The position numbers and the translations under genes are program-made. A stretch of 64,000 nt of DNA from Clostridia bacterium (GTDB taxonomy: Bacteria > Bacillota > Clostridia > UBA1381). Positions 32,441 through 50,256 of this stretch are shown here, piece by piece. Where the stretch lies: NCBI GenBank assembly GCA_017621875.1, contig JAGASE010000001.1, forward strand, positions 186,001 to 250,000, written 5' to 3'. The first letter of the stretch is position 1. Each line of letters starts with the position of its first letter. The notes under the pieces were generated by a model. That model was not told where the DNA came from and searched no databases. It saw nothing but the letters and a program-made list of their open reading frames with translations.

Positions 32441-32455
32441 TTGTAAATAAGGCTA

Positions 32456-32493
32456 TGCAAACGGCGTTGGTGTAATACTCGACGCCGTTTGCA
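32456..32493 (+). terminator. Stem-loop between binding-protein and permease genes
   Basis: 12-bp perfect arms TGCAAACGGCGT / ACGCCGTTTGCA with a 14-nt loop and no T run. This position is typical of a stabilising or partial-termination hairpin that keeps binding-protein mRNA above permease mRNA. Confidence 0.7.
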
Positions 32494-32586
32494 GACTAAA
32501 GTAAAGAATCGGACGTATAACCGCATGACGGTATATGTCATAAGGTGCTAAATTTGTGCCGCAAAAGCGGCGGAATGGAGAATTTT

Positions 32587-33507
32587 ATGAAGAAAACAGC
32601 AGGGCAGGGTGCGGAAAAGAAAAATGCCGGAAAGTTTTTCGAAAGCTTTAAAGCAAACTTTTCGGGCTGGATGCTGATAGTTCCGTCCCTGATTTTGTTT
32701 ATACTGATTGTATGGAGACCTATTGTTATAGGAATAAGCTATTCTTTTTTTGAGCTTCGGGGCGTAACGCCTGCGGAATTTGTGGGACTTGAAAATTTTA
32801 GACAGGTGCTTGCCGATACCAATTTTATTAAAACACTTTTAAATACTGTAAAATATGTATTCTGGTCGCTTATTATCGGTTTCCCGATGCCATTTATAGC
32901 TGCACTCATGCTCAATGAAATGGTTAACTGCAAGGGATATTTCAAGGTGGCAATGTATCTTCCGGTTGTTATTCCGGGAATGGCTACCTGCCTTATATGG
33001 AAAATGATTTATATGGACGGCGGCGGTGGATTTTTGAATATGCTGCTTTATTTTTTCGGCATAGGACCGCTGAATTGGCTCAGTAATGCCAATTTAACTA
33101 TTCCGCTTATAGTAATAATGATGTCGTGGCACGGTTTTGGTACAACCCTAATTATGTACCTTGCCACCATGCAGAGCATAAATCAGGAGCTTTATGAGGC
33201 TGCACGTCTTGACGGAGCAGGCTTTTGGGGAAGAATCCGTCATGTGCTTATTCCGCATATGTCGGGAACAATGCTGCTTTTGGGAATCCGTCAGATTATC
33301 AGTGTGTTCCAGGTTACAGAGCAGCCGCTGGTTATGACCGACGGAGGCCCGAACGGTGCATCGACCACACTCGGACTTACAGGGTATAACTATGCTTTCC
33401 GCTACGGTCAGTACGATAAAGCGATGGCACTGGGCGTAATAAGCTTCCTGATACTTCTGGTACTCACGTTTATCTATTTCTATTTAGACAAAAAAACACA
33501 GAATTAA
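32587..33507 (+). CDS. Sugar ABC transporter permease, MalF/UgpA type
   Basis: 306 residues with six predicted membrane segments (the first is WMLIVPSLILFILIVW). The EAA loop EAARLDGAGFWGRIRHVLIP contacts the ATPase subunit. The start ATG at 32587 has GGAG at the right distance; the longer frame lacks a site. It pairs with the following permease to form the CUT1 channel. No ATPase gene is in the locus, which is common for CUT1 systems that share an MsmK-type ATPase. Confidence 0.93.
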   Translation: MKKTAGQGAEKKNAGKFFESFKANFSGWMLIVPSLILFILIVWRPIVIGISYSFFELRGVTPAEFVGLENFRQVLADTNFIKTLLNTVKYVFWSLIIGFPMPFIAALMLNEMVNCKGYFKVAMYLPVVIPGMATCLIWKMIYMDGGGGFLNMLLYFFGIGPLNWLSNANLTIPLIVIMMSWHGFGTTLIMYLATMQSINQELYEAARLDGAGFWGRIRHVLIPHMSGTMLLLGIRQIISVFQVTEQPLVMTDGGPNGASTTLGLTGYNYAFRYGQYDKAMALGVISFLILLVLTFIYFYLDKKTQN

Positions 33508-33525
33508 AAGGGAGGCGAAATTAAA

Positions 33526-34431
33526 GTGAAAAAAATTAGTGAAAGATTTTCTGAAAAAACAAACGGCTTATTAAATTTTGCTGACCTCAAAAAGACGAGA
33601 TTCAAGGCTCTTTACTGGATAATGTTTGCCCTTTTGATGAATTTCACGCTTGCGTGCGTTGTGCCGACAATCTGGGTATTGTCATCGGGGCTTAAAACTA
33701 CCGAGGAAATGTACAGAATACCTCCTACAATTATTCCGGAGGTTTTCCGATGGGAGCAGATTCCGATTGCTTGGAATAAGATTTCCTTCGGAAAGAATTT
33801 TCTCAATTCGCTGTGGATTATACTGGGCTGTCTTTTGTTTGACATAACCTTTAACGGACTTGCAGGATATGTTCTTTCCAGAATTAAACCCAAAGGCTCG
33901 GCAATTGTTGAAACGTTGGTATTCTGGTCAATGCTTCTGCCGACGATAAGCATGGTACCGCTTTACATAACCTTTGTTGATGTACCGCTTATACATGTAA
34001 ACCTTCTGGGGACATTTACTCCGATGTGGCTGATTGCCGGTGCAAATGCGTTTAATGTGCTTCTGTTCCGCAGCTTCTTTAACGGAATACCTATGTCCTA
34101 TGTAGAGGCGGCACGTATAGACGGCTGCAGCAATCTTGGAATTTTCAGAAGAATTATTCTGCCGCTTTCCAAGCCGATAATAATGGTTGTAAGCATTTTC
34201 AGTATTACAAGCTCCTGGAGCAGCTTTATGTGGCCGTACCTGGTGCTGGGCTCGACCGATAAGGTACCGGTTGCAGTACGTCTTTATGAGCTTAGCACAA
34301 AGGGAACAACCATTCAGGATAACGAGATGATGATTATTACAACCTTCTCGATAATTCCTCCGCTTATCATGTATATGATTTTCTCAAAGCAGATTATGGG
34401 AGGTCTGGATATGAGCGGTATTAAGGGTTAA
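33526..34431 (+). CDS. Sugar ABC transporter permease, MalG type
   Basis: 301 residues with a GTG start after GGAGGC, 18 bp beyond the first permease. Multiple membrane segments and the EAA loop EAARIDGCSNLGIFRRIILP are present. It is the second half of the CUT1 channel. Its stop is followed after about 70 bp by the SLH protein gene, so one transcript probably covers uptake and surface proteins. Confidence 0.93.
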   Translation: MKKISERFSEKTNGLLNFADLKKTRFKALYWIMFALLMNFTLACVVPTIWVLSSGLKTTEEMYRIPPTIIPEVFRWEQIPIAWNKISFGKNFLNSLWIILGCLLFDITFNGLAGYVLSRIKPKGSAIVETLVFWSMLLPTISMVPLYITFVDVPLIHVNLLGTFTPMWLIAGANAFNVLLFRSFFNGIPMSYVEAARIDGCSNLGIFRRIILPLSKPIIMVVSIFSITSSWSSFMWPYLVLGSTDKVPVAVRLYELSTKGTTIQDNEMMIITTFSIIPPLIMYMIFSKQIMGGLDMSGIKG

Positions 34432-34501
34432 TGCTTTTATGTATTTAACGGATTCTAACAGAACTGCCATTGGCAGGATAAATAAAGGAAAGGGTGATTG
34501 T

Positions 34502-36220
34502 ATGATTTTAAAAAGAACTGCTGCAGTGGCAGCTGCCGCGGCTATTATGGCATCATCTTCGGTGTGCATGGGTGCAGGCGTGTGTGACATCAGCTATGAT
34601 ATTGATACGAATACCATAGCGATAAGCGGACATGTGACAGGCAATGCCAAATATGCAGCCCTGGAAATATTAAAGAAGGCAAAAACAGAAACGGATATAA
34701 AGTCGGCCTCAATGGGAGATGATGAGGCAGAGGCACTTAGCGGTTTGATAATGCATGCCGACCAGACAGCAGCTGCGGAGGACGGAAGCTTTACCTTTAC
34801 TTTCTCGCTTCCTGAGGATGCCGAGACAGGCACATATGCCGCAAGAATTTCTATGGGAAGTGTGGATAATGACCAGCTTATTTATATTAAGTACAGCGAT
34901 TTTTCAGCTGCACTCGATAGAATAAATTCAGCCGATATAACCACTGCGTCCCAAATGAAGGGTGCGATAGATGCCGGCAAGAATTACCTGGGTATGGACG
35001 CAGTAGCCTACGACAAGCTTACCGATAGTGAAAAACTGAAAATTGCGGAAAAAGTGCTAAACGCCCGCGATTCAAAAACCGGCAAAGTATTTGCAGGCTC
35101 GGCAGATTTTTTGCAGAGCTATCGCCCCGCAGCACTGGTTGAGATGATAAATCATTTCAGCAGTAAAAACAGTGATTTCGAGGCAGACGAGCTTTTATCG
35201 GAAAATGGGGACTTGATAGATATATCTTCCCTAAGCTCATATGCAACATATGAAAAGCAAACCGACAGCGTGAAATCGATGATATTGAGTGCGGTCTGTG
35301 AAAAAACGGGTTATACAGATTTAGATGGTGTCAAAGAGGAATTTTTATTCCAGACCGTAAACTACGCACTTTATAAAGCATCGGGATATGACCTGGCGTA
35401 TGAAATTTTAAATGATAATAACGGATATTTAGGATTATCCTTTACCGATTATAACAAGGTTAAAACAAAAAGCAAGGTAGACAAAAAAATGATAGGTCAG
35501 CTTTTTGCTTCAAAAGAGGATATCAAGAATAAGTTTGATGATTATGTTGACGCTGCTTTGGATTCGCAGTCGGATTCATCAGGAGGCGGCAGCAGCGGCG
35601 GAAGCGGTGGCTCTGTACCGAAAACCAATATTTCGGTCGGGATTTCGACGCCTTCGGGAACAGAGGGCTATAATACGCTGTTTTATGACCTTGACGGTGT
35701 AGAGTGGGCGAAAGAAAGTATTTTAAAGCTGGCTGAAATGGGCATTGTCAGCGGACGCGGCAACGGTATGTATTGTCCGCAGGATAATGTCACAAGAGAG
35801 GAATTTGTAAAAATGCTTGTCTGTACGCTCGGCTGCGAGGACGCTGCTGCAATATGCGAATACTCTGATACCGACGCAGGTGCGTGGTACTATAAATATG
35901 TTGCGTCGGCTGTTTCGGCAGGTATTGTAAGCGGAATAAGCGAGGAACGGTTTGGAACGGGTGAAAATATTTCCAGACAGGATATCGCAGTGTTAATAAA
36001 GCGTGCAGCCGAATATAAGGGAATTGCACTTGCAAAGGTAAAGGATAATGCCGGATTTGCGGATAGCAGTGAGGTTTCGGCATATGCTGCGGACGCTGTT
36101 ACAAAGGTATCTGAAAGCGGACTTATAAATGGAACCGATAAGGGGACGTTTGAGCCGCGAAGAAGTGCAACAAGAGCAGAAACTGCAAAAATTTTGTATG
36201 ATTTTTCAAAGCTGCTGTAA
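34502..36220 (+). CDS. Secreted protein with three C-terminal SLH domains
   Basis: 572 residues. A signal peptide (MILKRTAAVAAAAAIMAS) leads an N-terminal region of unknown type (about 25-375). A Gly/Ser linker (SSGGGSSGGSGGS) then joins three SLH repeats (about 400-572; VEWAKESILKLAEMGIVSGRGN, WYYKYVASAVSAGIVSG, YAADAVTKVSESGLINGTDKG). SLH domains bind pyruvylated secondary wall polymer, so the protein is held on the cell surface. The N-terminal part is helical and contains no enzyme motif that I recognise. It may be a binding or scaffold partner for the glycoside hydrolases downstream. Confidence 0.85.
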   Translation: MILKRTAAVAAAAAIMASSSVCMGAGVCDISYDIDTNTIAISGHVTGNAKYAALEILKKAKTETDIKSASMGDDEAEALSGLIMHADQTAAAEDGSFTFTFSLPEDAETGTYAARISMGSVDNDQLIYIKYSDFSAALDRINSADITTASQMKGAIDAGKNYLGMDAVAYDKLTDSEKLKIAEKVLNARDSKTGKVFAGSADFLQSYRPAALVEMINHFSSKNSDFEADELLSENGDLIDISSLSSYATYEKQTDSVKSMILSAVCEKTGYTDLDGVKEEFLFQTVNYALYKASGYDLAYEILNDNNGYLGLSFTDYNKVKTKSKVDKKMIGQLFASKEDIKNKFDDYVDAALDSQSDSSGGGSSGGSGGSVPKTNISVGISTPSGTEGYNTLFYDLDGVEWAKESILKLAEMGIVSGRGNGMYCPQDNVTREEFVKMLVCTLGCEDAAAICEYSDTDAGAWYYKYVASAVSAGIVSGISEERFGTGENISRQDIAVLIKRAAEYKGIALAKVKDNAGFADSSEVSAYAADAVTKVSESGLINGTDKGTFEPRRSATRAETAKILYDFSKLL

Positions 36221-36242
36221 AGAAAGGGGAGAGTGAAGGTCA

Positions 36243-38867
36243 GTGAAAAAGATATTATCATTTTTAATATGTCTGGCAATGCTTGCTCAAAGCATAATGA
36301 TAAACCCGGTATTTGCACAGGACAGCTCCGGTTTTGGTGAAGAATATGAGCTTTTGAAGGCACTGGGAATCGTAAACAGCAAAATAGTCATAGACGACAA
36401 GGATATTACAAGAGGCGAATTTGCGATACTTCTTGCAAATCTTAGCGGATTTACCGAGGGCGGCGAGGAAATATCGCAGTTCGTTGACGTTGAAGAGGAG
36501 TATTTTGCAAAAAAGGAAATAAATTATGTCGCATCTAAGGGATATATGAAGGGTCGCAGCGATGATAAGTTCTGTCCCGGATACAATCTCACAGCAGATG
36601 AGGCGTATCGGGTGGTGCTTACCGCCTTGGGCTATGGTATATATGCTGCCAATTCAGGAGGATATACTGCTACAGCTTCCTCTATAGGACTTTCTAAGGG
36701 TGTCAATGCAGGACGTCAGCTTTCAAAAAAATCGGCTGTTAGGCTTATATATAACGCACTTGATACGGGAATCCTGTCGGCATCGGAATATAAGGTGACT
36801 GACGGCGGAGTGTCGCAGGTTATGAAAACAACTGAAACTCCGCTTACCGAGTGGCTTAATCTGGATTATGCCGAGGGACTTGTTACAAAAGTAGGCACAA
36901 GCGTTATAAATAACGACTACAGCATCGGCGGAGATTTCATGATAGGCGATACCTCTCTTGAGCTGTCAAAAGATGATAACGTGTATGAATATCTTGGCTT
37001 TGTGTGCCGTGCATACTACGATAAGGACGACTATTCCTTAAAGGCTGTTGTTAATAGAGAAAATAAAAACGACATTACACAGATAGATACGGCAAGCTGC
37101 GTATATGTTGATGATGCAATCGTATATGACAATGGCAAAGGAACAAAAAGGGTTGAGGTTAAAGCTATTGACGAGGTTGTTTTAAACGGTGTGCCGGTGG
37201 CTGCGGACGAACGTGAGAGTGCAATCAGCAATGCCGATGGTAGGATTGTTGTGAACAAGGTATCGGATTATGACGGAAAAATTATTCTGATAACCTCTTA
37301 TGAAACTTACTATGTAAGCGGAATTTCGCAGGAAAATACTACAATATACGACAGGGTTAATACAGCAAGAAGGCTTGTTATTGATTATGATAATGCAAGC
37401 GTGGATATAAAATATTCAGACGGCAGTGAGTGCAGATTTGAGCAGATTAAGACGGGAAATGTGTTGAGTATTTTAAGGCATGGTACAGGAGACGATGTCA
37501 CTGTTATTGTTTCGGATAAGTCTGTTAGCGGAAAGCTTACGGCAAAGAGTGTTGAGGACCTTACTATTGAAATTTCCGCTACAGAGTATGCAGTAACAAA
37601 GGACTACATAACAAAAGACCTGCCGGAGCCGGGAACAAGCATTACAGCGTATCTCGATTGCTTCGGAAGAGTTGCGTATATCGACGATGGCGGCAGCGAG
37701 GGCTACAGCTACGGATTTATAAGAAAGTATTATCCTTCCGATGATGACGATACTCTGCTTAGCCTGAATATATTCACATTAGATGGTACATTTGTTACCT
37801 ATAATACACGTGAAAAAACAAAAATTGACGGCAAGACTTTTGATACCCCTGATAAAAAGATAGAAGCACTTTCAAAGGAGAACGGAAATCTTGGAGTTTA
37901 TCGTCTTGTGAGATATAAGCTGAACAGTGCAGGTGAAATCAGCCATATTGATACCTCGGTTTATACAAGCGGCAGTGAGTCGGATAGCAACAGAATGATA
38001 AAAATACACTCTGCATCAGGCGATTCGCTGCTGTATAAGCAGGTGCCGAAGGCTTTCGGACATACGGGAGATGTGGGTATTAAGGTTGTAACCGACGCTT
38101 CTACAATAGTGCTGAAGGTTCCGCAGAATGCTAATGCAGGTACTAACACAAAGCTTTTTAAGGTTTCAAGCCTTTCAAGCTATACCAATGACTACGCGTA
38201 CTCAATTGATGCATACAAGTCATCTTTAAAGGATATTCCTGCGGATATAATTGTTGAATATGTAACCGAAGGCTCGGCTGAAAAGTACGCATACGGATTC
38301 ATAAAGGAGCTGCAGCAGGTTTATGATGAGGACGAGGACGCTCCGGTTATGAATATAACTATGGTAACCTCCCAATACGGAGAAAAGGTTTATAAGACGG
38401 AGGCGGATTTTGATATTGCCGACGCTGTTAAAGCGGAGGGAGAAGCTGATGATACACTCACGCCGGGCAAGGGAGATATAGTAAAGGTCGGACTTGATTC
38501 GCAGGAGCAGATCCTCTCCATGGAGGTTTACTATGATGCAAGTGCTGCGAGCTGGCTGCCAAGTACAGCTCCGTACGGCTCAATTTATAACGACCATTTC
38601 TATTACGGTACGGTTTACCGCAAGGACGGACAATATCTGCAGATGAGCAACAGACCGGTAACGAGTGCGGTGTCACAGGAAAGCCTGCTGTCATCAATAC
38701 CGCTTGCAAGTAATGTAAGGATTATAAAATTCGAGACTGCTTCAAATAAGGCAGAGGAGATTTCGGTAGATGAGCTGCTTGATTTTGAAAGCGTGGGTGC
38801 AAGTGCGTCAAGGGTAGTTGCTATCACCCGTGCGGCAAGCGGTACGGTAGTTATAGCTTATGAATAA
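36243..38867 (+). CDS. SLH-anchored surface protein of unknown function
   Basis: 874 residues with a GTG start and a signal peptide (MKKILSFLICLAMLAQSIMINPVFA). SLH-like repeats occupy about residues 30-180 (YELLKALGIVNSKIVI..., INYVASKGYMKGRSDDKFCPG, SAVRLIYNALDTGIL). The remaining 700 residues are beta-rich, full of Asp, Gly, Ser and Tyr, and match no family I can name. Large SLH proteins with a beta-rich remainder are often S-layer or polymer-binding proteins. It overlaps the next ORF frame by a few bases and shares its operon. Confidence 0.75.
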   Translation: MKKILSFLICLAMLAQSIMINPVFAQDSSGFGEEYELLKALGIVNSKIVIDDKDITRGEFAILLANLSGFTEGGEEISQFVDVEEEYFAKKEINYVASKGYMKGRSDDKFCPGYNLTADEAYRVVLTALGYGIYAANSGGYTATASSIGLSKGVNAGRQLSKKSAVRLIYNALDTGILSASEYKVTDGGVSQVMKTTETPLTEWLNLDYAEGLVTKVGTSVINNDYSIGGDFMIGDTSLELSKDDNVYEYLGFVCRAYYDKDDYSLKAVVNRENKNDITQIDTASCVYVDDAIVYDNGKGTKRVEVKAIDEVVLNGVPVAADERESAISNADGRIVVNKVSDYDGKIILITSYETYYVSGISQENTTIYDRVNTARRLVIDYDNASVDIKYSDGSECRFEQIKTGNVLSILRHGTGDDVTVIVSDKSVSGKLTAKSVEDLTIEISATEYAVTKDYITKDLPEPGTSITAYLDCFGRVAYIDDGGSEGYSYGFIRKYYPSDDDDTLLSLNIFTLDGTFVTYNTREKTKIDGKTFDTPDKKIEALSKENGNLGVYRLVRYKLNSAGEISHIDTSVYTSGSESDSNRMIKIHSASGDSLLYKQVPKAFGHTGDVGIKVVTDASTIVLKVPQNANAGTNTKLFKVSSLSSYTNDYAYSIDAYKSSLKDIPADIIVEYVTEGSAEKYAYGFIKELQQVYDEDEDAPVMNITMVTSQYGEKVYKTEADFDIADAVKAEGEADDTLTPGKGDIVKVGLDSQEQILSMEVYYDASAASWLPSTAPYGSIYNDHFYYGTVYRKDGQYLQMSNRPVTSAVSQESLLSSIPLASNVRIIKFETASNKAEEISVDELLDFESVGASASRVVAITRAASGTVVIAYE

Positions 38868-38877
38868 GGAGAGAGCC

Positions 38878-41800
38878 ATGAAAAAACTAATTAGTATTGT
38901 TTTGTCGGTATCGGTTTTGGCGGGCGTTTGCCCTATAGCGGCACACGCTTCGGGCTTTTCCGATGTGACATATGATAATAAGGCGTACGAAGCGGTTAAT
39001 TACCTTGCAGCAAAAGGTATAGTGAGCGGTGTTGGAGATAATAAATTCATGCCGGAGGCTTCAGTGAAAAGAGCTGATTTTGCGGTTATGGCGGATAATG
39101 CCCTGGAGCTTTCCGACCAAAGCAGCACCGCATTTTCCGATGTTTATGCGGAGGATTATTACTATTATGCGGTACAGAGAGCGAGCGGCGAGGGCATAAT
39201 AAGCGGAACTGGAAACGGACTATTCGAGCCGAATCGCAGCATCACACGCGAGGAGGCTGCCTCTATACTGGTGCGTGCATTTGAAAAAAGAAACGGTGCA
39301 ACAGCCTCGCTTGATATGGCATCGGAATATGCGGACAAGGGCGAGGTTTCGGCATGGGCTTTGGAGGCTGTGGATAAAGCACTTGCACTTAATCTTATAA
39401 CAGCAGAGAACGGAATTGAGCCGAAGCGTGCGATGACGCGTGCGGAAACAGCGTATGCTGTAGCGAATCTGCTGCTTTTGGAAAGTGAAAATTCTGTCTG
39501 GGACAGCGGAAAGAAAAGCTATATAGAGCAAACAACCGCAAGAGGAAATATTTTCCTTGTAAGTCATGAGAAAAAACTGATGACGCTGGTTACAGGCAGA
39601 AAAGCAATTGAATATATTATACGCGATTATTGGGGCAGGGCACTGGAGCATAAATACATACGCATTGAAAATGAAAAGCATGTATTTGATGTATCGGATT
39701 ATACTCCGGGATATTATGAGCTTTATGTTTATGCAAGGGACAGTCAGGGACTGAAAGAGGAAATTTCCAGAGCCTCATTCTGTGTATTTGAGGACTTCGA
39801 TTTTAAGAGTCTGGAATATTCGCCGTTCGGAATGAACACTCACATCACAAGAGGTGCGAGCGGATGGAAGCCCGACCTTCTGCATGAGGCTTCTCTTATG
39901 GGAGTACGACATCTTCGAGATTCGGACGAATGGGGAGGCGTTGAAAGGTCCAAGGGCGTTTATACAGATACATGGGCGGATAAGCGTGCAATAATGGACA
40001 AATATGGCATGGATAACCTCTGGGTATCGGCATATGTAAATCCGTTCTATGACAATAATTCTACGCCGTATACCGAAGACGGAAGAACAGGCTTTGCAAA
40101 TTACTGCAAGGGCATACGCGACATTTGGGGCGATAAGATGATGCTCATGGAGGTTTATAACGAATGGTGGGGACCGCAGTTCGGTGACCGCGGCAGCGGT
40201 GAGGCAAATTCACTGCCGGAAACCTTTGTTCCGCTCGTTAAGAAAACCTATGAAACGGTTAAGCCGAATCATCCGGATGTGATACTGATGCCAACCTTTT
40301 CTACAAACGCAAACAGATATCAGCCAAACTGGAACACAAATCTGTTGAAGCTTGGTATTTTGGACTATATTGACGCCATTGCCCTTCACGGCTATGCCGG
40401 AAATGATAAAACTCCCGGAAAAACAGAGCCGGAGGGCTCAATCGCGGCAACCGTTAAGGAATTGAGAGATGAGCTTGATGAAAAGTTCCCCGACCGCGAG
40501 GTTGATATATATGTAACCGAAACAGGTCTTAACACAAGTACCAATAAGTATGGAATAAGTGAAAAGCTGGGAGCATGGTATGTGCCGAGAGTGTTCACGA
40601 GCTGTATGGCACTGGGAGTTAAATCAATATGGTGGTATGACCTTATTGATGACGGAAACACCGATTCGGAGCATGAGGACCGCTTTGGTACGCTGCGTGC
40701 CTTCGGAAGCAAGTACGGTAATTATACTCCGAAGCCAACATATGTTGCATACGGTGCATTTGCCCGTACAATTGCAGGTCAGCACATGACGGCGGAAAAA
40801 CGAGTAGGAGATATTTACTGGTATGTTTACGGCGGAAAAGGCGAGGATACTCACGTAATTCATGCCCGCGATGATGTTAAAAAGAACATTACTGTTTATA
40901 CCGATTCCCCTGTTGAAGTAATTGACATTATGGGCGGAAAAAGTGTATATACACCGGTTGACGGAAAGCTGTACTTTACTGCAAGCGGTGAGTCAATTTA
41001 CATCAAGGGTGATGTAAAGGATATCAAGGAGGAATGTCCGATAAGCCTTACGGCGGACGGCGAGGTTATTTTGGGTGAAACTTACAGCGTAACCGTTGAT
41101 AACGGCGGTACGGGACTTGATATAGAAATTGAAGGAAGAACTGCCGAAAACGGAAGCTTCACTCCCGACATTTTGTATATTGAAAGTGACAGAACGGTAA
41201 TTGCCGAGGTTAAAAACGGTACAATGCCTGCAGGAAGAATTACTGCGGAGGTTTCACCGACGGCAAGATATGAAATAACCGCAAACGGCGACCTTGAAGG
41301 AACAGGTGACAGTGTTGAGGGATATATTTATGCGTTGGTAAAGAATCTTTCCGCTCGTGAGCTTCCGCTTACAGGTCTTGTGTGGACGCTGGAGGATAGA
41401 AGCGGAACTTTTGCCGCAGTAGAAAGCATACCTGCAAAGAGTCAGACTTATGTAAAAATACCCGTGGGACAAATTGAGACGGGAGTTGAGTATGACTACA
41501 CTGTGCGTACACAGATTGGAGGAATTACTTCAGACGAGCTTGACATAAGCGATACCATAACCTTTAATGCAATAAAACGCTTTACACCTGTTATAGACGG
41601 TGTGGTAGACGCAGAGTTTGAGTCAATCACCGGCTTCAATCTTGATGAAGCGACAGTATCCTCGCTTATCGACGGTAGAAAGCACACAGGTGCCTCCGAC
41701 CTTGGCGGTAAGGGCTGGATGACTTATGATGATAAATATTTGTACTGGATTGTCGACGTAACCGATGATGACCATAATATCATTGAAAACGGTATGAACA

Positions 41801-42216
41801 TGTGGAGAAATGACAATCTGCAGTTTACGCTGTATTGCGAGAACTCCGAGCTTTATGATGAGGTAAGCAAATACTTTGAATTGGGTATATCGCTTACGCA
41901 AGAGGGCGGAGTGCAGGTTTACCGATGGAGAACGATTGACGATATGCCGGAGGATTTAAGCATTATACCCGATGCGGTATATGCAGCATCCCGTAACGAG
42001 GACACAAAGCATACTGTGTACGAAATCGGAATCCCGTGGACAACTCTAAAGGTTGACCCGACGGTGCAGAAGAATATCCGTTCATCAATTCTGATAAACG
42101 ACAATGACAGCGGACAGCGTAAGAGCTTCCTTGAATGGGGCAGCGGAATCGGATACGGAAAAGACCCGAATGCATTTATCAAGTATATTATATCGGGAGG
42201 CGAAGCGAATGAATAA
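38878..42216 (+). CDS. SLH-anchored clan GH-A-like glycoside hydrolase with CBM9/DOMON-like C terminus
   Basis: 1112 residues. A signal peptide is followed by three SLH repeats (about 25-205; FSDVTYDNKAYEAVNYLAAKGIVSG, YYYAVQRASGEGIISGTGN and one more). An Ig-like region precedes a TIM barrel at about 310-640. Its EVYNEWW (near residue 427) and YVTETGLN (near 547) match the acid/base and nucleophile positions of clan GH-A enzymes (GH5/GH39 and similar). A C-terminal beta-sandwich (about 900-1110; PVIDGVVDAEF, WMTYDDKYLYWIVDVTDDD) resembles CBM9/DOMON carbohydrate-binding domains. The start at MKKLISI after AAGGAG is preferred to the frame start six codons earlier. The glycan substrate is unknown. 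Confidence 0.85.
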   Translation: MKKLISIVLSVSVLAGVCPIAAHASGFSDVTYDNKAYEAVNYLAAKGIVSGVGDNKFMPEASVKRADFAVMADNALELSDQSSTAFSDVYAEDYYYYAVQRASGEGIISGTGNGLFEPNRSITREEAASILVRAFEKRNGATASLDMASEYADKGEVSAWALEAVDKALALNLITAENGIEPKRAMTRAETAYAVANLLLLESENSVWDSGKKSYIEQTTARGNIFLVSHEKKLMTLVTGRKAIEYIIRDYWGRALEHKYIRIENEKHVFDVSDYTPGYYELYVYARDSQGLKEEISRASFCVFEDFDFKSLEYSPFGMNTHITRGASGWKPDLLHEASLMGVRHLRDSDEWGGVERSKGVYTDTWADKRAIMDKYGMDNLWVSAYVNPFYDNNSTPYTEDGRTGFANYCKGIRDIWGDKMMLMEVYNEWWGPQFGDRGSGEANSLPETFVPLVKKTYETVKPNHPDVILMPTFSTNANRYQPNWNTNLLKLGILDYIDAIALHGYAGNDKTPGKTEPEGSIAATVKELRDELDEKFPDREVDIYVTETGLNTSTNKYGISEKLGAWYVPRVFTSCMALGVKSIWWYDLIDDGNTDSEHEDRFGTLRAFGSKYGNYTPKPTYVAYGAFARTIAGQHMTAEKRVGDIYWYVYGGKGEDTHVIHARDDVKKNITVYTDSPVEVIDIMGGKSVYTPVDGKLYFTASGESIYIKGDVKDIKEECPISLTADGEVILGETYSVTVDNGGTGLDIEIEGRTAENGSFTPDILYIESDRTVIAEVKNGTMPAGRITAEVSPTARYEITANGDLEGTGDSVEGYIYALVKNLSARELPLTGLVWTLEDRSGTFAAVESIPAKSQTYVKIPVGQIETGVEYDYTVRTQIGGITSDELDISDTITFNAIKRFTPVIDGVVDAEFESITGFNLDEATVSSLIDGRKHTGASDLGGKGWMTYDDKYLYWIVDVTDDDHNIIENGMNMWRNDNLQFTLYCENSELYDEVSKYFELGISLTQEGGVQVYRWRTIDDMPEDLSIIPDAVYAASRNEDTKHTVYEIGIPWTTLKVDPTVQKNIRSSILINDNDSGQRKSFLEWGSGIGYGKDPNAFIKYIISGGEANE

Positions 42217-43369
42217 AATTCTGAAAACAGTTACGATAGCGGCAGTAATGCTTGCAGTGTCCGCCCAGAGTGTATTTTCGGCGGCACTTGAAAAGATTTC
42301 AAAGGGGACCTTAGTGTCCCCTGAAGAAAACGTGTTCCGCCTTTGGGGTGATGATAATGAATTTATTCTGTTGGACGTGTCGGAGGATAATAACTCAAAA
42401 TTCTTTGTTATGGCGAAGAGCTATTTTTCTAAAAGAGCGTACAGCAGCGGTAAAAATCAGCGATTCGACCCTGAGAATCCGTCAAGTGTTGCATACTTTT
42501 TAAACGGCGAATTTTTGAAGAAGGGTATAACAGACAGCTTTACCAAGCGGAATTACCGTCTTCCGGAGGAGATAATCGAGCATATTAATTTCAATCACAG
42601 CTGGACTACCGAGGCAGGACGCGTCGGCGGAGATTGCCCCAAAGAGTATGTAACAAAGACGGGAATAGCACTGTTGTCACAGACTGAATACTTAAAGTAT
42701 CAGGATAAAATCGGCATGACAGATGGCTTTGATAATTTGATACATACACCAAAATATACAGGCTTTTGGACAAGAACAGGTGCAAACAGCAGCGAAATGA
42801 TTTGTGTGCGTGCGGTAACAAGTGTAACACAAACTCTTGCATGGGCAATTAATGATGCAGGTCTTAATATCCGACCGGTATTCTGGCTGGATATCGACTT
42901 TTTCCGCGAGGTGCCTATCGACCTTTCTTCCGCCGGAGAAAATGTAAAGGCGATTTTTAAGGAGTATTATACAATCAATGAGCTTGAAAAAATTTATCCC
43001 GAAAGCTGGGTTTATGATTATCTGGGATATAAGCCCGATGTCAGTGTAAAAAACACGGTGATAAAGGTTGACGGCGATTCTGCATCAGCTCTTAAGGCGG
43101 GTGCTCACAAGATGTCGGTAAATGCGGAGTTTGTAAACAATCTGCAGGAGGATATCGGTGGAAGAATTGTGGCAGTTAAGTATCATTCTAATGGTACTCC
43201 GCAGCAGATGGCGAGTTTGCCGCTTGATATTCCGGCAAATTCATCAGTAAGTGCGGGAATTGAGCTTAATTTCAATACCCCATGCAAAAACGGTGATTAT
43301 GTAAAGCTGTTCTATTCGTCAGCTTATGATAAATTTGCAAAAACATCTAATTCAGTAAGAATTTACTGA
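42209..43369 (+). CDS. Secreted single-copy module protein (DUF6273-like)
   Basis: 386 residues, signal peptide MNKILKTVTIAAVMLAVSAQSVFSA. The ATG overlaps the preceding stop by 8 bases with GGGAGG upstream. It carries one copy (about 35-265) of the module found twice in each of the next two proteins: F.FVMAKSYF, SVAYFLNGEFL, HSWTTEAG, WTRTG, IRPVFWLDIDFF and IDLSSAGENV. The pattern of a tryptophan-Arg core and a terminal RPxFxL strand recalls DUF6273, a surface domain of unknown function. A C-terminal beta-rich domain (about 295-386) follows. No anchor is seen. Confidence 0.65.
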   Translation: MNKILKTVTIAAVMLAVSAQSVFSAALEKISKGTLVSPEENVFRLWGDDNEFILLDVSEDNNSKFFVMAKSYFSKRAYSSGKNQRFDPENPSSVAYFLNGEFLKKGITDSFTKRNYRLPEEIIEHINFNHSWTTEAGRVGGDCPKEYVTKTGIALLSQTEYLKYQDKIGMTDGFDNLIHTPKYTGFWTRTGANSSEMICVRAVTSVTQTLAWAINDAGLNIRPVFWLDIDFFREVPIDLSSAGENVKAIFKEYYTINELEKIYPESWVYDYLGYKPDVSVKNTVIKVDGDSASALKAGAHKMSVNAEFVNNLQEDIGGRIVAVKYHSNGTPQQMASLPLDIPANSSVSAGIELNFNTPCKNGDYVKLFYSSAYDKFAKTSNSVRIY

Positions 43370-43386
43370 GAAGGGAGAGTGCAGTA

Positions 43387-45810
43387 ATGAAAAAAATAAT
43401 TTCGCATCTTCTGGCAGCTGCGATGCTTGCTGCATGGATGCCGGCTATGGCAGAGGGAGAAACCGTAACCGTTGAGGCAAGGAGCGGCAAAACCCCTGCT
43501 TACGGAGAAACTCTTACTGCTGTGTTTTCCGGCGAGGGTGATGATATCACTGTAACCTGGCAGAGAGTTGACGGCAGCAATTCAGAAGATATTAAAACGG
43601 GCGATGAATATATCGTAACCGAAGCAGATATGGGATATAAAATCCGTGCATCGGTCTCGGACGGAACTAACACGTATACTTCGGAAGAATATAGTATTGC
43701 AAGCTATGTTGAGTCTCATTCGCGAAATGAGGACGCTATAGTAAACGCAGCCTCAGACGAGGACGCTCTGTTTAAGCTGAAGGGCAGCGACAGGGAATTT
43801 GTGCTTGCCGAAACCTTTAATAACAGTGAATCGAAGTATTTTGTGGTTGCAAATGAGCTGTACGGAAAAAAGGCGATCTCAACCGAAAACGGATATCAAA
43901 AATTTAATTCCGAGGAGGAAGGAAGCTTCCAGGCATGGATAAACAGCGATTTTGCAGGAAGCGGCATAGACGGCGTAAAGCTTCCCGAAAAGCTTCTGAG
44001 CTATATAAATTATAGTCACATCTGGCGTACCGAGGGGACGACAGCATGGACGTCAAATAATATTGACAGCTATACCTTTAAAGCAGGAATTACAATTCCA
44101 TCGGTGTCGGAGCTTGTATATTATGACAGGGTTGGCTATGACGTAAAAAGCACAGAGGGCGAGTCGGCGGATAAAATAATGACGAGAACGCCGGTAAACC
44201 ATTCGGCAGCACTTGCTCCGAACTGGATAATGCTTCTTAATATGCAGTATTCGCAAAATTCCTCAACGCAGGTACGTTTGGTGCATGGAGCAAGCCCGGA
44301 GGAATGGGTGCGTCCGCAGTTCTATTTAAAGGACGGATTTTTTGCAAACGTGGCGGTGGACCTTTCAAGTGCAGGAGAGGATATAATTAACCTGATAAAG
44401 CAGGAGGACGCAGATAGCCTGTATGAGCTTTATTCAGCGTATGAGGCGGTGAATATCTTAGGACTTGAGCCGCCGGAGGGATATCTCATATTGTCGGATA
44501 TCTGTATGGAAACAAAAAGTGGTGAGACTCCGGCTTACGGAGAAACCGTTATCCCGAAATTTAAATACGACTCATCGAATGTAAATCCTTTTGAAAAGTG
44601 CGAATATGAGTGGGTAAGCGGCGGTGAGACGGTATCAAATGCGGAGGAGTATATAATAACCGAGGCAGACGCAGGACGTAAGCTGAAGTTCTTCGTAACT
44701 GTTTGGGATACCGAAGGAAACGAAACAATGCACGAGTCGGAGGAGATAGAGATTCCTGCAATTTCCATAAGTCCGGTAGCTCCTAACAGCTCAACCGGTA
44801 ATATCGCAAATGCAGACGCAGCAAATGTGTTTGATATAGGCGGACAGAAGTTCACCCTGGTTGATAGCTTTAATAATTCAAAATCAACCTTTTACGTAAT
44901 TGCCAATGCAGTTTACGGAAATAAGAGCTTTTCAAGCCCGATTATGAATACAAATGATACCACAAGCCTGTCCTACTGGTTGAATAACACGTTTTTAACG
45001 GAAGGAAACGGCACCGCAGGCACGTTGCCTGCATCGGTTAAGAGCTATATCGACTTTGAGCATATGTGGCTTACTGAGGGAGCACCCGATTCGGCATCGG
45101 GGCATTCGGCTTACAGCTTTGCTGCGGGTGTGACAATACCGTCGGTATCGGAGCTTATAAGATATAAGGACGTAATCGGAGTTTCCGATACAGGGGCACG
45201 CTATTGGCTCAGAACAAACATAAACTATGCTAACACCAAGCATTTTATGGGTACAATAGCCGGCACAGGTACGTCTTCGGCAATAAATCACTGGGATATA
45301 CCAAACGGAAGTACAGGTATTCGACCGCAGTTCTATCTGGGTGAGGACTTCTTTAAAAATATTGCCATAGACCTTACTCTGGCAGGAAGCAATGTTATTG
45401 CGGCAATGGCACAGAGGTATACAATCGAGGAGCTTGAGCATCTGTATGATGCGGCTGTACTTGAGGAATTAGGCTTCGGCTATGAATTTGAGTTTGATGC
45501 AAGCTTCACATCGGGAGGTGTTAAGGCAGAAACTCTTGCCGGCATAACCGAGCTTACGGCAGAGGTTACACTTACGTCAAATACCGATAAGGGATTGTCC
45601 GGCTTAGTGATTTATGCTTTGTATGATGAGAAAGGGGCAACGCAGGCTATAAGGTTTGCAAGGATTGAAACCGAGGCACAGACCTCCGCCGACATTTCGA
45701 TGACGCTTACGGGTCTTAGCGGCATTACGGCTGACTACAATGCAAAGGTAATGCTTTGGGACAACTCGTACAGCATGAATGTTCTGAATAATTTTGTGAG
45801 CTTTAAATAA
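43387..45810 (+). CDS. Secreted protein with two Ig-like plus two DUF6273-like modules
   Basis: 807 residues. A signal peptide (to about 22) is followed by an Ig-like domain (25-105, VTVEARSGKTPAYGETLTAV), module 1 (about 120-355), a second Ig-like domain (about 365-455, METKSGETPAYGETVIPKF) and module 2 (about 470-690). A terminal beta-sandwich closes the protein. Each module has AWINSDF / YWLNNTFL, HIWRTEG / HMWLTEG, FKAGITIPSVSEL, TRT / LRT and RPQFYL. The two halves are clearly an internal duplication. It is secreted, without SLH or LPXTG, and probably binds the polysaccharide or other surface proteins. GGGAG precedes the ATG. Confidence 0.7.
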   Translation: MKKIISHLLAAAMLAAWMPAMAEGETVTVEARSGKTPAYGETLTAVFSGEGDDITVTWQRVDGSNSEDIKTGDEYIVTEADMGYKIRASVSDGTNTYTSEEYSIASYVESHSRNEDAIVNAASDEDALFKLKGSDREFVLAETFNNSESKYFVVANELYGKKAISTENGYQKFNSEEEGSFQAWINSDFAGSGIDGVKLPEKLLSYINYSHIWRTEGTTAWTSNNIDSYTFKAGITIPSVSELVYYDRVGYDVKSTEGESADKIMTRTPVNHSAALAPNWIMLLNMQYSQNSSTQVRLVHGASPEEWVRPQFYLKDGFFANVAVDLSSAGEDIINLIKQEDADSLYELYSAYEAVNILGLEPPEGYLILSDICMETKSGETPAYGETVIPKFKYDSSNVNPFEKCEYEWVSGGETVSNAEEYIITEADAGRKLKFFVTVWDTEGNETMHESEEIEIPAISISPVAPNSSTGNIANADAANVFDIGGQKFTLVDSFNNSKSTFYVIANAVYGNKSFSSPIMNTNDTTSLSYWLNNTFLTEGNGTAGTLPASVKSYIDFEHMWLTEGAPDSASGHSAYSFAAGVTIPSVSELIRYKDVIGVSDTGARYWLRTNINYANTKHFMGTIAGTGTSSAINHWDIPNGSTGIRPQFYLGEDFFKNIAIDLTLAGSNVIAAMAQRYTIEELEHLYDAAVLEELGFGYEFEFDASFTSGGVKAETLAGITELTAEVTLTSNTDKGLSGLVIYALYDEKGATQAIRFARIETEAQTSADISMTLTGLSGITADYNAKVMLWDNSYSMNVLNNFVSFK

Positions 45811-46135
45811 AGGCTGAAAATCCATCTTCCTCGACTTTTCGAGGCATACGGACTAAAATGTTTTAAATAATTTTTGCGGATTTGCTGCTGCAGAAATGTT
45901 TAAATAAATGCTGTGGAAATTAAGAATTGTTATGCTCTTGCTAAAGATGGACGAATTTGCCGGGAATTAGTACGCAAATGCTTCACCCATACAAAAGCAT
46001 TTGCGGCGTGGGGTAAATTTTTCGGGCATATTCCGACAGATTGGAGCGAAGAGTGAGTAATTATATTTTCTGACGGCAGCTTTAATAAAGAAATGTGCCT
46101 TGCGGCACAAGCTTTAGCGAAAGGAGATAATAAAA
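45811..46135. other. Intergenic with strong hairpins before the second duplicated-module gene
   Basis: 325 bp, no clear gene. It contains 11-bp arms CGCAAATGCTT / AAGCATTTGCG (45971-46001) and GTGCC/GGCAC (about 46095-46109). A 40-codon open stretch ending in HIPTDWSEE runs across 45930-46057 without a start or ribosome site; it may be a relic. No riboswitch fold was recognised. Confidence 0.5.
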
Positions 46136-48757
46136 ATGAAAAAAATATTATCAATGGTAGTTGCACTTGGTATGGCATTGTCAACATTTACGGCAATTCC
46201 TGCACAGGCTGCAGCCACAACAGTATCAATCGCAGCTGTAAGCGGCGAAGCGATTGCATATGGTGAAACCTTAAAAGCAACTCATGACGGGGACTCGGGA
46301 GCAACCGTAACCTGGCAGAGAGTTGATGGTAGCAATGTAACCGACATAACAACCGGCGATACATACATCGTAACCGAGGAGGATATGGGTTACAGTATTC
46401 AGGCAAAGGTTGATGACGCAGTATCATCTGCAGCTGCCATTGCAAGCTATGTAAAGACTTTTAATACAAATTCCACATATGCAAGCAACAGACTGTCTGA
46501 TGAAAATGCGATTTTTAAGGTTAAGGGGAGTGACCGCACATTTGTTCTGGCAAAAACCTTTAACAATAATGAGTCAACATATTATGTGGTTGCTAATGAA
46601 ACATACGGAAAAAGAACGCTGAATGAAAGTACATATACTATAGATGGTCTTGTAGCTAAGGGAAGATGGAATCCGAGCGTTGTGTCGGAAAGCAATTTGG
46701 CATATTGGCTGAATGTCAGCTTTGCAAACTACGGCAACTCCAGTTATGGTGACGGCAATAAATTACCGACGGAGCTTATTGACTGGATAAACTGGGATCA
46801 TATTTGGCGTACCGAGGGAACGACAAGCTTGCCTGAACAAACCGTAAGCGGATATTATACAGATAATCTTGACAGCTATACCTTTACAGCAGGTGTAACT
46901 GTTCCGTCAATGTCGGAAATCACAAATTACAGCAAGGTGGGATATTTGGCATTGCCTGCAAACTCACAGAATAATTCTACTAAAGGATATATAATCCAAA
47001 CAAGAACAGTCTGCGACAGACCCAGTACAAGTGCGTATAAATGGAATCTTGTACTTGTAACTCAGACAGCAGCTGAAGGAGCAACGTCATGGGCTGCGAC
47101 CGATACGGCATTCAGGTCGAATCATAATGACTATCCGACTACAAATTCGATACGTCCGCAGTTCTATTTAAAGGACGGATTTTTCGGAAGTGTAGCGGTT
47201 GACCTTGCATCTGCAGGCTCAGACGTTATTGCAGAGATTAAGAAGGAAGACGTTGAAGACCTTGTTCTGATTTATTCTGCTGACGATATGAGAGAATATC
47301 TCGGAATAGATGTAAGCCTGTATCCTGAAATTACAGCTGTAAGCGGTGAAGCGATTGCATATGGTGAAACCGTTAAAGCAACAGCTCCTAATGTTACAGC
47401 GTTCACATGGAAGGCTGACGATGTTGTAGTTGCATCGGGTACAGATGAATATATCGTAAAGGAAGGCGACGCCGGTAAAAAGCTTACAGCTGAATACACC
47501 GCTGCAGACGGTACGGTTTATAAGAGCGGCGAGGATGTTCCGGCACTTTTGAATGAGGCATGGAAGCCAAATGCTACCGTGGCTTCAATAAAAAATTCTC
47601 CTAACACCTTTACGGTAGACGGACAGAGCTTTACACTTATTGCTGATTTTAACAACGATGAATCAACATACTTTGTTGCAGCTAATGATATGTACGGAAG
47701 TGTTAATATATCTACTGTAACAATGTCACCTGCTGAGGGTGTTATATCGTGGCTTAACGGTGCTGAGGGGCTGGCAGGCGGTTATGGCTCAAAAGAACTG
47801 CCGGAAGGAATTTTGGAATACATTGATACAGACCACGAGTGGCTTGCAGAGCCTGCTCCGCTTGACGCAACGGCTTCTGATACTGCAGAAGCATATACCT
47901 TTACAGCAGGTATCGCACTTCCGTCAATAAGTGAATTTAGACGCTATCCTGATACCTTTAACTGGTACGTTAAGAATCCTGATAAAACAGAAGTGATAGA
48001 TTCTTCTACGGGAGCACTTACAACAGCTAATAACTATGCATACTGGACACGTACACGTGCAAACTTTGCAAATGCGGACAAGAACCACCTGTTGGTGGCA
48101 CATGTAGCAACAAATGCCACCTATGCAAACTTCAATCCGCCGCACTGGGGTTTGCCGGCAACTACAAATGTAAGACCTGTGTTCTATCTTGCTGAGGACT
48201 TCTTCAGAAATGTTACGATTGACCTTTATGAAAGTGAGGCTGTAACAAATATTCTTGCTGAGAGATACTCGCTTGAGGAAATGAAGGCACTTTATCTCCC
48301 GACAGGTGAATATGTTGAGGAAGACCTTGTAAGCTTGGGCTTTAAGGCTGAAAAGGCCATCAGCGTAAGCTTTACAGACGAGAATGGCACAGCACTTGAT
48401 GTGCTTGAAGGTGCAACGTCACTTAAGGCCGCAATAACAGCAGAAAGCTTCAATAAGAGCTTTGAGGCTGTTGCAATTTTGTCAGTATACGACGGAAATG
48501 GAAATTTAGTTGCAGTTGATATGGCAAATATCGACACAACATCAACAGGTACAGATTCTGTAAGCATCACTTTAACAGAACTTGAAGATATTGATGCAGG
48601 ACATGTTGCAAAGGTTATGTTCTGGGATTCAATGGACGGAATGGTTCCGGTAGGCGATATTGCGGACTTTGGAACAGAGATTACTCCTGCAGGGGAGCTG
48701 AGCTTTGCTGCAGGTGCGGCATCGGACGGAAGCATTGGAGGATATAATTTTTTCTAA
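46136..48757 (+). CDS. Secreted Ig/DUF6273-like module protein, likely first part of a frameshifted fusion
   Basis: 873 residues to the in-frame stop. The architecture matches the preceding gene: signal peptide, Ig-like domain (SGEAIAYGETLKATHD), module 1 (about 110-375), a second Ig-like domain with the same SGEAIAYGETVKAT signature, module 2 (about 475-710) and a beta-sandwich. AAAGGAGAT gives an excellent ribosome site. It differs by an extra tail ending SIGGYNFF and a stop at 48755-48757. The stop is preceded by T-TTT-TTC in the phase needed for -1 slippage, and the -1 frame continues as a glycoside hydrolase. The complete product may be about 1,373 residues. Confidence 0.75.
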   Translation: MKKILSMVVALGMALSTFTAIPAQAAATTVSIAAVSGEAIAYGETLKATHDGDSGATVTWQRVDGSNVTDITTGDTYIVTEEDMGYSIQAKVDDAVSSAAAIASYVKTFNTNSTYASNRLSDENAIFKVKGSDRTFVLAKTFNNNESTYYVVANETYGKRTLNESTYTIDGLVAKGRWNPSVVSESNLAYWLNVSFANYGNSSYGDGNKLPTELIDWINWDHIWRTEGTTSLPEQTVSGYYTDNLDSYTFTAGVTVPSMSEITNYSKVGYLALPANSQNNSTKGYIIQTRTVCDRPSTSAYKWNLVLVTQTAAEGATSWAATDTAFRSNHNDYPTTNSIRPQFYLKDGFFGSVAVDLASAGSDVIAEIKKEDVEDLVLIYSADDMREYLGIDVSLYPEITAVSGEAIAYGETVKATAPNVTAFTWKADDVVVASGTDEYIVKEGDAGKKLTAEYTAADGTVYKSGEDVPALLNEAWKPNATVASIKNSPNTFTVDGQSFTLIADFNNDESTYFVAANDMYGSVNISTVTMSPAEGVISWLNGAEGLAGGYGSKELPEGILEYIDTDHEWLAEPAPLDATASDTAEAYTFTAGIALPSISEFRRYPDTFNWYVKNPDKTEVIDSSTGALTTANNYAYWTRTRANFANADKNHLLVAHVATNATYANFNPPHWGLPATTNVRPVFYLAEDFFRNVTIDLYESEAVTNILAERYSLEEMKALYLPTGEYVEEDLVSLGFKAEKAISVSFTDENGTALDVLEGATSLKAAITAESFNKSFEAVAILSVYDGNGNLVAVDMANIDTTSTGTDSVSITLTELEDIDAGHVAKVMFWDSMDGMVPVGDIADFGTEITPAGELSFAAGAASDGSIGGYNFF
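48737..48757 (+). other. Candidate -1 frameshift site (T-TTT-TTC before a stop)
   Basis: GGAGG (48737-48741), then the heptamer T TTT TTC (48748-48754) in frame, then TAA (48755-48757). Slipping back one base continues into CTA AAT GAG, the frame of the 48778 reading frame. A small CGG-TTT-CCG hairpin follows (48770-48778). Transcript slippage on T6 or a sequencing indel would look the same. Confidence 0.65.
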
Positions 48758-48777
48758 ATGAGCCAATTGCGGTTTCC

Positions 48778-50256
48778 GTGGCAAGCTGCGACGGAGAATA
48801 CTTTTCATATGAGGTAACGGATTACTACGGTAATGTTGTTATAAAAGAAAGAAACGAAAAATATGAGGGAGAGGGCACAGCACTTGACCTCTCCTCGCTT
48901 CGTGCAGGGTATTATGAGATTACGGCTTATGATACCCTTGACGCGGGCGAAAGGACGCAATTGGCTAAGACGTCAATTTCAATTTTAGAAGAGCATGAAT
49001 TTGCTTCTGCCGAAAATTCATATTTCGGCATTAATATGCATATGCATAGGGGCAGTATAGGAAATGATAACGGTAGTGGCTGGACCTTTGATTTGATAAA
49101 AAATGCATGCAGCATCGGTGCTATGAGTATTCGTGAAAACAGAGAGTGGCAGGACGCGGAGGCAACACCGGGAAGCTACAGCTTTGGCTATGAGAATTAT
49201 GCAGGAAAGCTGGCAACGCGTAATATGGATATGATTATGGCTACAGGCTTTAAAAATACCAATTATGATAACGGAGAGCCGCCGTACACCGATGACGGAA
49301 TTGCAGCATTTGCAAATTACAGCAAGGCTGCGTTTGATGAATACCCCAAGGGACTTTTAAAATATCAGGAAATGTTTAATGAGTGGTGGAAGTACTCCGT
49401 TGACAGTGAAGATAATCAGAATGACCATGTGGACGGAACTCCCGAGGAGTATTTGAAAATTGCCGAAAGGGTGTATTCTACGATAGATAAGACAAATTAT
49501 CCCGATGCGGTTTTGTTTGGAGAATTCAGCCGCGATACAGATGGCTGGAACAAGCCGCTTATTGACGGCGGAATCGTGGACCTCATGGACGCTGCGGCAC
49601 TTCATCGCTATGGTGTGAGCTACAGTACGGATGACCCTGTTCATCTGCCGGAGGATGCTGTTGTAGCGGAATCCTTCCGAGAGCTTCGGGAAATGATGGA
49701 TGCAAGCGGCGGTGAGGATAAGCCTATATGGCTTACCGAAACGGGCTATACGTCCTCTGCAAATAAGTATGGTATATCTGAGGAGCTGCAGGCAAAATAT
49801 TTGCCGAGACTCATGCTGATGTGGATTGCTGAGGGTGCCGAAAAGGTATTCTGGTACGACCTTTTAGACGATGGATATGACAAGAATCAATCATGGATTA
49901 ACAACCACGAATATCATTTTGGACTGATGCGGTCAAAGCTCAATTCCATGGGTGCATATTCGCCGAAACCAGCATATGTTTCCTTTGGCGTTATGGCACG
50001 TGCAGTGGACGGAAAAACCTTTGCCGAAAGAACTGTTAAGAATGATAATATTTATCGTTACCGCTTTGCGGACGAAACGAGTGAAATGAGTGCTTTGGTT
50101 GCACTTACACCCTGCAGTGTTACATTAAGCACGAATGCAGCACTTACCGTTACGGATATTATGGGACAGAAGAAAACGTATTCGCCTCAAAATGGAGTGG
50201 TTACGCTTGACTTGACCGATGATATCATTTATATTGACGGTGCATTTACAATGTAA
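48778..50256 (+). CDS. Glycoside hydrolase, clan GH-A-like (probable C-terminal part of the 46136 protein)
   Basis: 492 residues from a GTG, but the frame is open from 48748, with no ribosome site before the GTG and no signal peptide. The N-terminal Ig-like segment (SYEVTDYYGNVVIKERNEKY) aligns with the region before the barrel of the 38878 enzyme, and that alignment starts upstream of the GTG, in codons reached only by a frameshift from the previous gene. The TIM barrel carries QEMFNEWW (acid/base, near residue 201) and LTETGYTSSANKYG (nucleophile, near 320). A beta-strand tail ends DDIIYIDGAFTM. It is a paralogue of the 38878 hydrolase but lacks SLH and CBM9 parts. The substrate is unknown. 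Confidence 0.75.
   Translation: MASCDGEYFSYEVTDYYGNVVIKERNEKYEGEGTALDLSSLRAGYYEITAYDTLDAGERTQLAKTSISILEEHEFASAENSYFGINMHMHRGSIGNDNGSGWTFDLIKNACSIGAMSIRENREWQDAEATPGSYSFGYENYAGKLATRNMDMIMATGFKNTNYDNGEPPYTDDGIAAFANYSKAAFDEYPKGLLKYQEMFNEWWKYSVDSEDNQNDHVDGTPEEYLKIAERVYSTIDKTNYPDAVLFGEFSRDTDGWNKPLIDGGIVDLMDAAALHRYGVSYSTDDPVHLPEDAVVAESFRELREMMDASGGEDKPIWLTETGYTSSANKYGISEELQAKYLPRLMLMWIAEGAEKVFWYDLLDDGYDKNQSWINNHEYHFGLMRSKLNSMGAYSPKPAYVSFGVMARAVDGKTFAERTVKNDNIYRYRFADETSEMSALVALTPCSVTLSTNAALTVTDIMGQKKTYSPQNGVVTLDLTDDIIYIDGAFTM

Follow-up and report, generated by a model that had tools for sequence, protein, structure and literature searches.

A probable small frame-changing event at a T TTT TTC site interrupts an ancestrally continuous secreted glycoside hydrolase gene in a Clostridia bacterium

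Sequence comparison identifies two overlapping reading frames of a Clostridia bacterium, an upstream frame of 873 residues and a downstream frame in the -1 phase, as one gene by descent, with a secreted fusion protein of 1,373 residues as its ancestral design. The gene lies in a window of 64,000 nucleotides, which is the whole stretch of DNA that was analysed; all coordinates refer to this window and to its + strand unless stated otherwise. Taking a real mutation and a single consensus error jointly, we consider it probable that a small frame-changing event broke a continuous gene. Separately, a real mutation is moderately likely, a consensus error possible but rather doubtful, and the programmed frameshifting put forward in the original prediction unlikely; phase variation and any other explanation are each very improbable.

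In zero-frame codons, the junction reads GGA GGA TAT AAT TTT TTC TAA. The TAA stop of the upstream frame (48755-48757, read from the sequence) directly follows the heptamer T TTT TTC (48748-48754), which consists of a run of six T (48748-48753) and one C (48754). The heptamer stands in the zero-frame phase required for tandem -1 slippage, and has the X XXY YYZ form expected of a programmed -1 frameshift gene. The -1 frame opens at 48748, 7 nt 5' of the stop. Its first possible start, a GTG at 48778-48780, lies 23 nt after the stop and inside an Ig-like domain, and is preceded by just a 3-base match to an SD sequence. These positions, read again from the letters, agree with the original prediction as to the end of the 873-residue frame, the phase of the heptamer, and a -1 frame whose sole start candidate lacks a ribosome site.

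The upstream frame (46136-48757) has a signal-peptide-like N-terminus, followed by two Ig-like and DUF6273-like repeats, a beta-sandwich and a 27-residue tail. The modules are of the C-type-lectin-like type, and in phage proteins DUF6273 has a fold of that type (PMC10743442). We call them DUF6273-like because they are related by sequence comparison to a neighbouring single-module protein of 421 aa (42104-43369), which itself scored 22.8 bits against DUF6273 at a cut-off of 23.5; in a Pfam search for DUF6273 across the genome, even the controls gave no signal. Between these two genes lies a module-only paralogue of the upstream half (43387-45810, 807 aa, 44% identity). It ends where the 27-residue tail of the 873-residue frame starts, so that this tail links the upstream half to the domain that comes next.

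According to sequence comparison, the downstream frame (48748-50256) encodes the rest of the Ig-like domain, a GH39-like barrel of clan GH-A and a C-terminal beta-sandwich. It runs for 500 codons with zero stops and has normal codon usage (52nd percentile). Both catalytic glutamates are retained (in the motifs NEWW and TETG), and N211-E212 and E331, numbered in the -1 frame from 48748, are invariant with two relatives. The barrel matched PDB 5JVK, the GH39wh2 enzyme of Bacteroides cellulosilyticus (PMC6933502), with E values of 1.1e-13 for the single sequence and 5.4e-30 for a profile; none of the Pfam and NCBIfam GH models matched it. By homology and its two catalytic glutamates the barrel is placed with GH39 and clan GH-A, and it is a predicted hydrolase. 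It resembles GH39wh2 in the barrel, in the NE- and TE-type catalytic glutamates and in the beta-sandwiches that flank the barrel on both sides, but the match is weak, the focal protein bears DUF6273-like modules and its function is a prediction. Modelling the structure encoded by the downstream frame gave a pLDDT of 56, too uncertain for use.

Three lines of evidence indicate that the two frames are one gene, namely single-frame fusions in relatives, an Ig-like domain that spans the break, and the linker-like tail. Lectin-like modules, an Ig-like domain and a GH39-like barrel occur in one frame in three genomes from two families: G017 (1,776 aa, complete), G030 (1,113 aa) and G439 (1,219 aa), the latter two being cut by a contig end. 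The secreted product of about 1,373 residues that the original prediction proposed, with two Ig/module units and an enzyme, thus has the same architecture as these single reading frames. Like the focal downstream frame, these fusions finish right after the C-terminal sandwich and lack the CBM9-like domain that the SLH paralogues carry. The downstream frame also matches SLH-anchored enzymes, both in relatives and in the window, where the paralogue at 38860-42216 combines three SLH domains, an Ig-like domain, a GH barrel and a CBM9-like domain in one intact frame by sequence comparison. A profile built without the window sequence scored 404.8 bits on the downstream frame when read from the GTG and 407.3 bits from the slip site. 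The gain is small, but the codons before the GTG encode LNEPIAVSV, which matches the strand that opens the Ig-like domain (e.g., TTEPAAFEV). This agrees with the earlier observation that the domain before the barrel of this paralogue aligns across the junction, codons before the GTG included.

We compared the junction with eight homologous sites in five genomes, which comprised relatives and the in-window paralogue and included the three single-frame fusions. The relatives are distant, at about 33% identity. All eight sites were in frame and none had the heptamer; each reads GGA or GGT and AAT or AAC, followed by an in-frame FY-type codon pair (e.g., GGA AAT GTT TTC, GGA AAT ATT TTT, GGA AAT ATT TTC, GGA AAC ATT TTT and GGA AAT GTA TAT). 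Hence, the site and the break arose in the focal lineage. In the nearest copy (G264, contig C164, 45% identity) the contig end precedes the junction, and a second strain was not found in the genus, family, order and class/phylum samples, the genome contigs or the viral contigs.

Frame-aware Viterbi scanning covered 807 kb (40% of the genome) and yielded 312 close same-strand coding pairs. The focal junction was the only one to lack both a junction start codon and an SD sequence, and the GTG at 48778 was the weakest start signal among all 312; in the other weight-3 pair (C18:399890) an ATG overlaps the stop. A genome-wide indel error was rejected, as none of the other pairs showed a comparable break; the focal break is isolated, and a general indel problem of the assembly is unlikely. 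What remains is either a mutation that is real or one isolated error in the consensus. The gene has the features of an indel-disrupted gene, with intact single-frame homologues and a non-conserved, isolated break, and in the GeneTack survey singleton frame breaks with intact homologues were attributed to indel mutation or sequencing error (PMC3711429).

That the true gene is continuous and the break an error of consensus or assembly is a possibility to which we give limited weight. It would agree with the homopolymer, the continuous relatives and the undecayed downstream frame, and would be the most economical account of an intact -1 frame. Against it stand the lack of any other comparable break in 807 kb, the abundance of A7 and T7 runs in the assembly, and the length of the run, as six bases is short for short-read indel errors. 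We regard a recent real mutation as more likely than a single consensus error. Two observations count against the joint reading of mutation or error: the 500-codon frame with both catalytic glutamates is undecayed, and U UUU UUC is among the motifs prone to shifting in E. coli. At 3% neutral divergence, the downstream frame would have a chance of about 0.12 of having acquired no nonsense change. Given its lack of decay, the break in front of the enzyme frame must be of recent date, be false, or be tolerated through leaking enzyme.

The original prediction proposed that programmed -1 frameshifting on U UUU UUC, which must then have evolved in the focal lineage, sets the ratio of module-only to enzyme-bearing protein. 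We consider this improbable. The heptamer does stand in the correct phase right before the stop, its motif is of a class favourable for shifting in E. coli (PMC4066793), the downstream frame is undecayed, and the adjoining module-only paralogues suggest that both product types could be useful. The heptamer is, however, missing at all eight homologous sites, three of which belong to the same fusion in one frame, so that the site is not conserved among homologues. Moreover, the loss of one base from a homopolymer leaves X XXX XXY in the slippery phase by construction, and therefore the heptamer is not independent evidence for programming; a base loss within a C pair beside the T run would yield an identical picture. 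The original prediction had itself singled out, as the result that would speak against it, related genomes with a single frame and no heptamer. This is what the comparison of the junction revealed, and it leaves recoding unsupported; as the relatives compared are distant, recoding acquired in this lineage alone keeps a small probability.

The flanking signals that had been put forward as stimulators both exist, at about the level expected by chance. The SD-like GGAGG (48737-48741), which codes for Gly-Gly, lies 6 nt upstream of the T run and thus within the spacing of 6-17 nt accepted for stimulation of -1 frameshifting (PMC4066793); SD-like motifs at accepted spacing occurred at 19.6% of the in-phase coding positions of the same genome, taken as a background count. 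The region 3' of the heptamer (48755-48825) forms weak RNA hairpins (-17.8 kcal/mol, z -1.8), and folds at least as stable were found in 17% of ordinary coding windows.

In the same 807 kb, 12 other in-phase T TTT TTC sites were found, all within ordinary genes and none at a gene break, which implies that the motif alone defines no switch. Synonymous shuffling gave an expectation of 23 +/- 3.6 for this coding sequence. The scarcity fits real slipperiness, but slipperiness need not explain it, because the same 7-mer was also rarer than expected in phase 0 (8 vs 20.6). In the slippery phase A AAA AAG was commoner than expected (125 vs 74). A variant in which -1 recoding became fixed in this lineage after a homopolymer contraction, and was kept for free lectin-like modules plus a smaller share of module-linked enzyme, is if anything slightly less probable than programmed frameshifting at large. 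A literature search on programmed frameshifting in bacterial glycoside hydrolases returned nothing relevant. If lineage-specific recoding were true, it would to our knowledge be the first switch of its kind in a locus for secreted glycoside hydrolases.

Phase variation, in which replication slippage would flip the length of the T run and so toggle the enzyme, is very unlikely. A surface or secreted protein with a homopolymer at the break and an intact off-frame would suit it; the T6 tract, however, is short and of unexceptional length in a genome with 597 T6 and 208 T7 runs, while the hallmark of phase variation is a hypermutable repeat tract that has several lengths in the population, and the relatives have no tract at all. 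GeneTack uses a run of 7 or more as its criterion (PMC3711429). Transcriptional slippage, for which a run of A or T must reach about nine bases (PMC1088944), was rejected at a run of six. Two separate genes, the second starting by coupling or reinitiation from the GTG 23 nt after the stop, are scarcely credible and were rejected, as this start has no SD sequence and no signal peptide, would strip the Ig-like domain of its first strand, and has fused relatives against it.

Under the favoured explanation, an ancestrally continuous gene broken by a small frame-changing event, the ancestral gene would have encoded a secreted modular glycoside hydrolase with a signal peptide, DUF6273-type lectin-like modules, an Ig-like domain and a GH39-like barrel. 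A small deletion at or beside the T run would interrupt this gene in the focal genome. Ribosomes would then terminate at the TAA at 48755, giving a soluble, truncated module-only protein as the main product and leaving most of the enzyme unmade. The leftover U UUU UUC may still yield a little fused enzyme through incidental -1 slippage, as a by-product and not as an evolved switch. Loss of the focal enzyme would be buffered, since the genome has related intact GH paralogues.

Of the known systems, the singleton 'fs-genes' or indel-disrupted reading frames of GeneTack (PMC3711429) share with this gene the continuous homologues, a non-conserved break, a homopolymer and being one of a kind in the genome; the focal gene differs in that it is undecayed so far and that its shift-prone residual run may leak product. 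The programmed -1 frameshifting of dnaX and the IS3 family has the same in-phase X XXY YYZ, early zero-frame stop and upstream SD-like sequence. In contrast to those genes, the focal site is non-conserved, its stimulators are at chance level, its relatives are single-frame, and retention of both products lacks support. There is also a likeness to 'savior' frameshifting, in which slippage compensates for an indel (reviewed in PMC5009743), as the leftover run could restore a low level of the predicted full product.

The locus also encodes an ABC sugar-type importer, an AraC regulator and an L-rhamnose isomerase, and the intact protein was probably a glycosidase that is secreted and binds glycans, within a surface polysaccharide-use locus. 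The block of SLH, DUF6273-like and GH genes (31043-50256 in the window; 99-19408 in L063) is common to G017 and G030 but permuted: there the SLH genes come after the module and fused genes, whereas in the window they come first. An 874-aa SLH-containing protein (36243-38867), in which one weak SLH was the only family match, adjoins the SLH-GH gene also in G017, G030, G264 and G439. On the minus strand of L125 (G439, contig C120; 5492-7987), an SLH-GH homologue has 832 aa vs about 1,118; here '...TVQNNMD' joins the final 'LLKK' of the family, an internal in-frame deletion of the CBM9-like domain that is either real or an assembly join. Elsewhere in the window, on the minus strand (6799-11811), DUF4062 and an NPHP3-type NTPase domain occur together in a protein of 1,670 aa, an architecture that points to a STAND-like sensor, perhaps one for defence.

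These results settle that the two reading frames are one gene, with a secreted fusion of modules and enzyme, present in two families, as its ancestral product, which automatic annotation would miss. The junction is furthermore a clean example of how weakly a slippery heptamer in the right phase supports recoding when it stands at a frame break, because a contracted homopolymer leaves one behind. If recoding were nevertheless true, it would be an unusual means of dosing a cell-surface enzyme.
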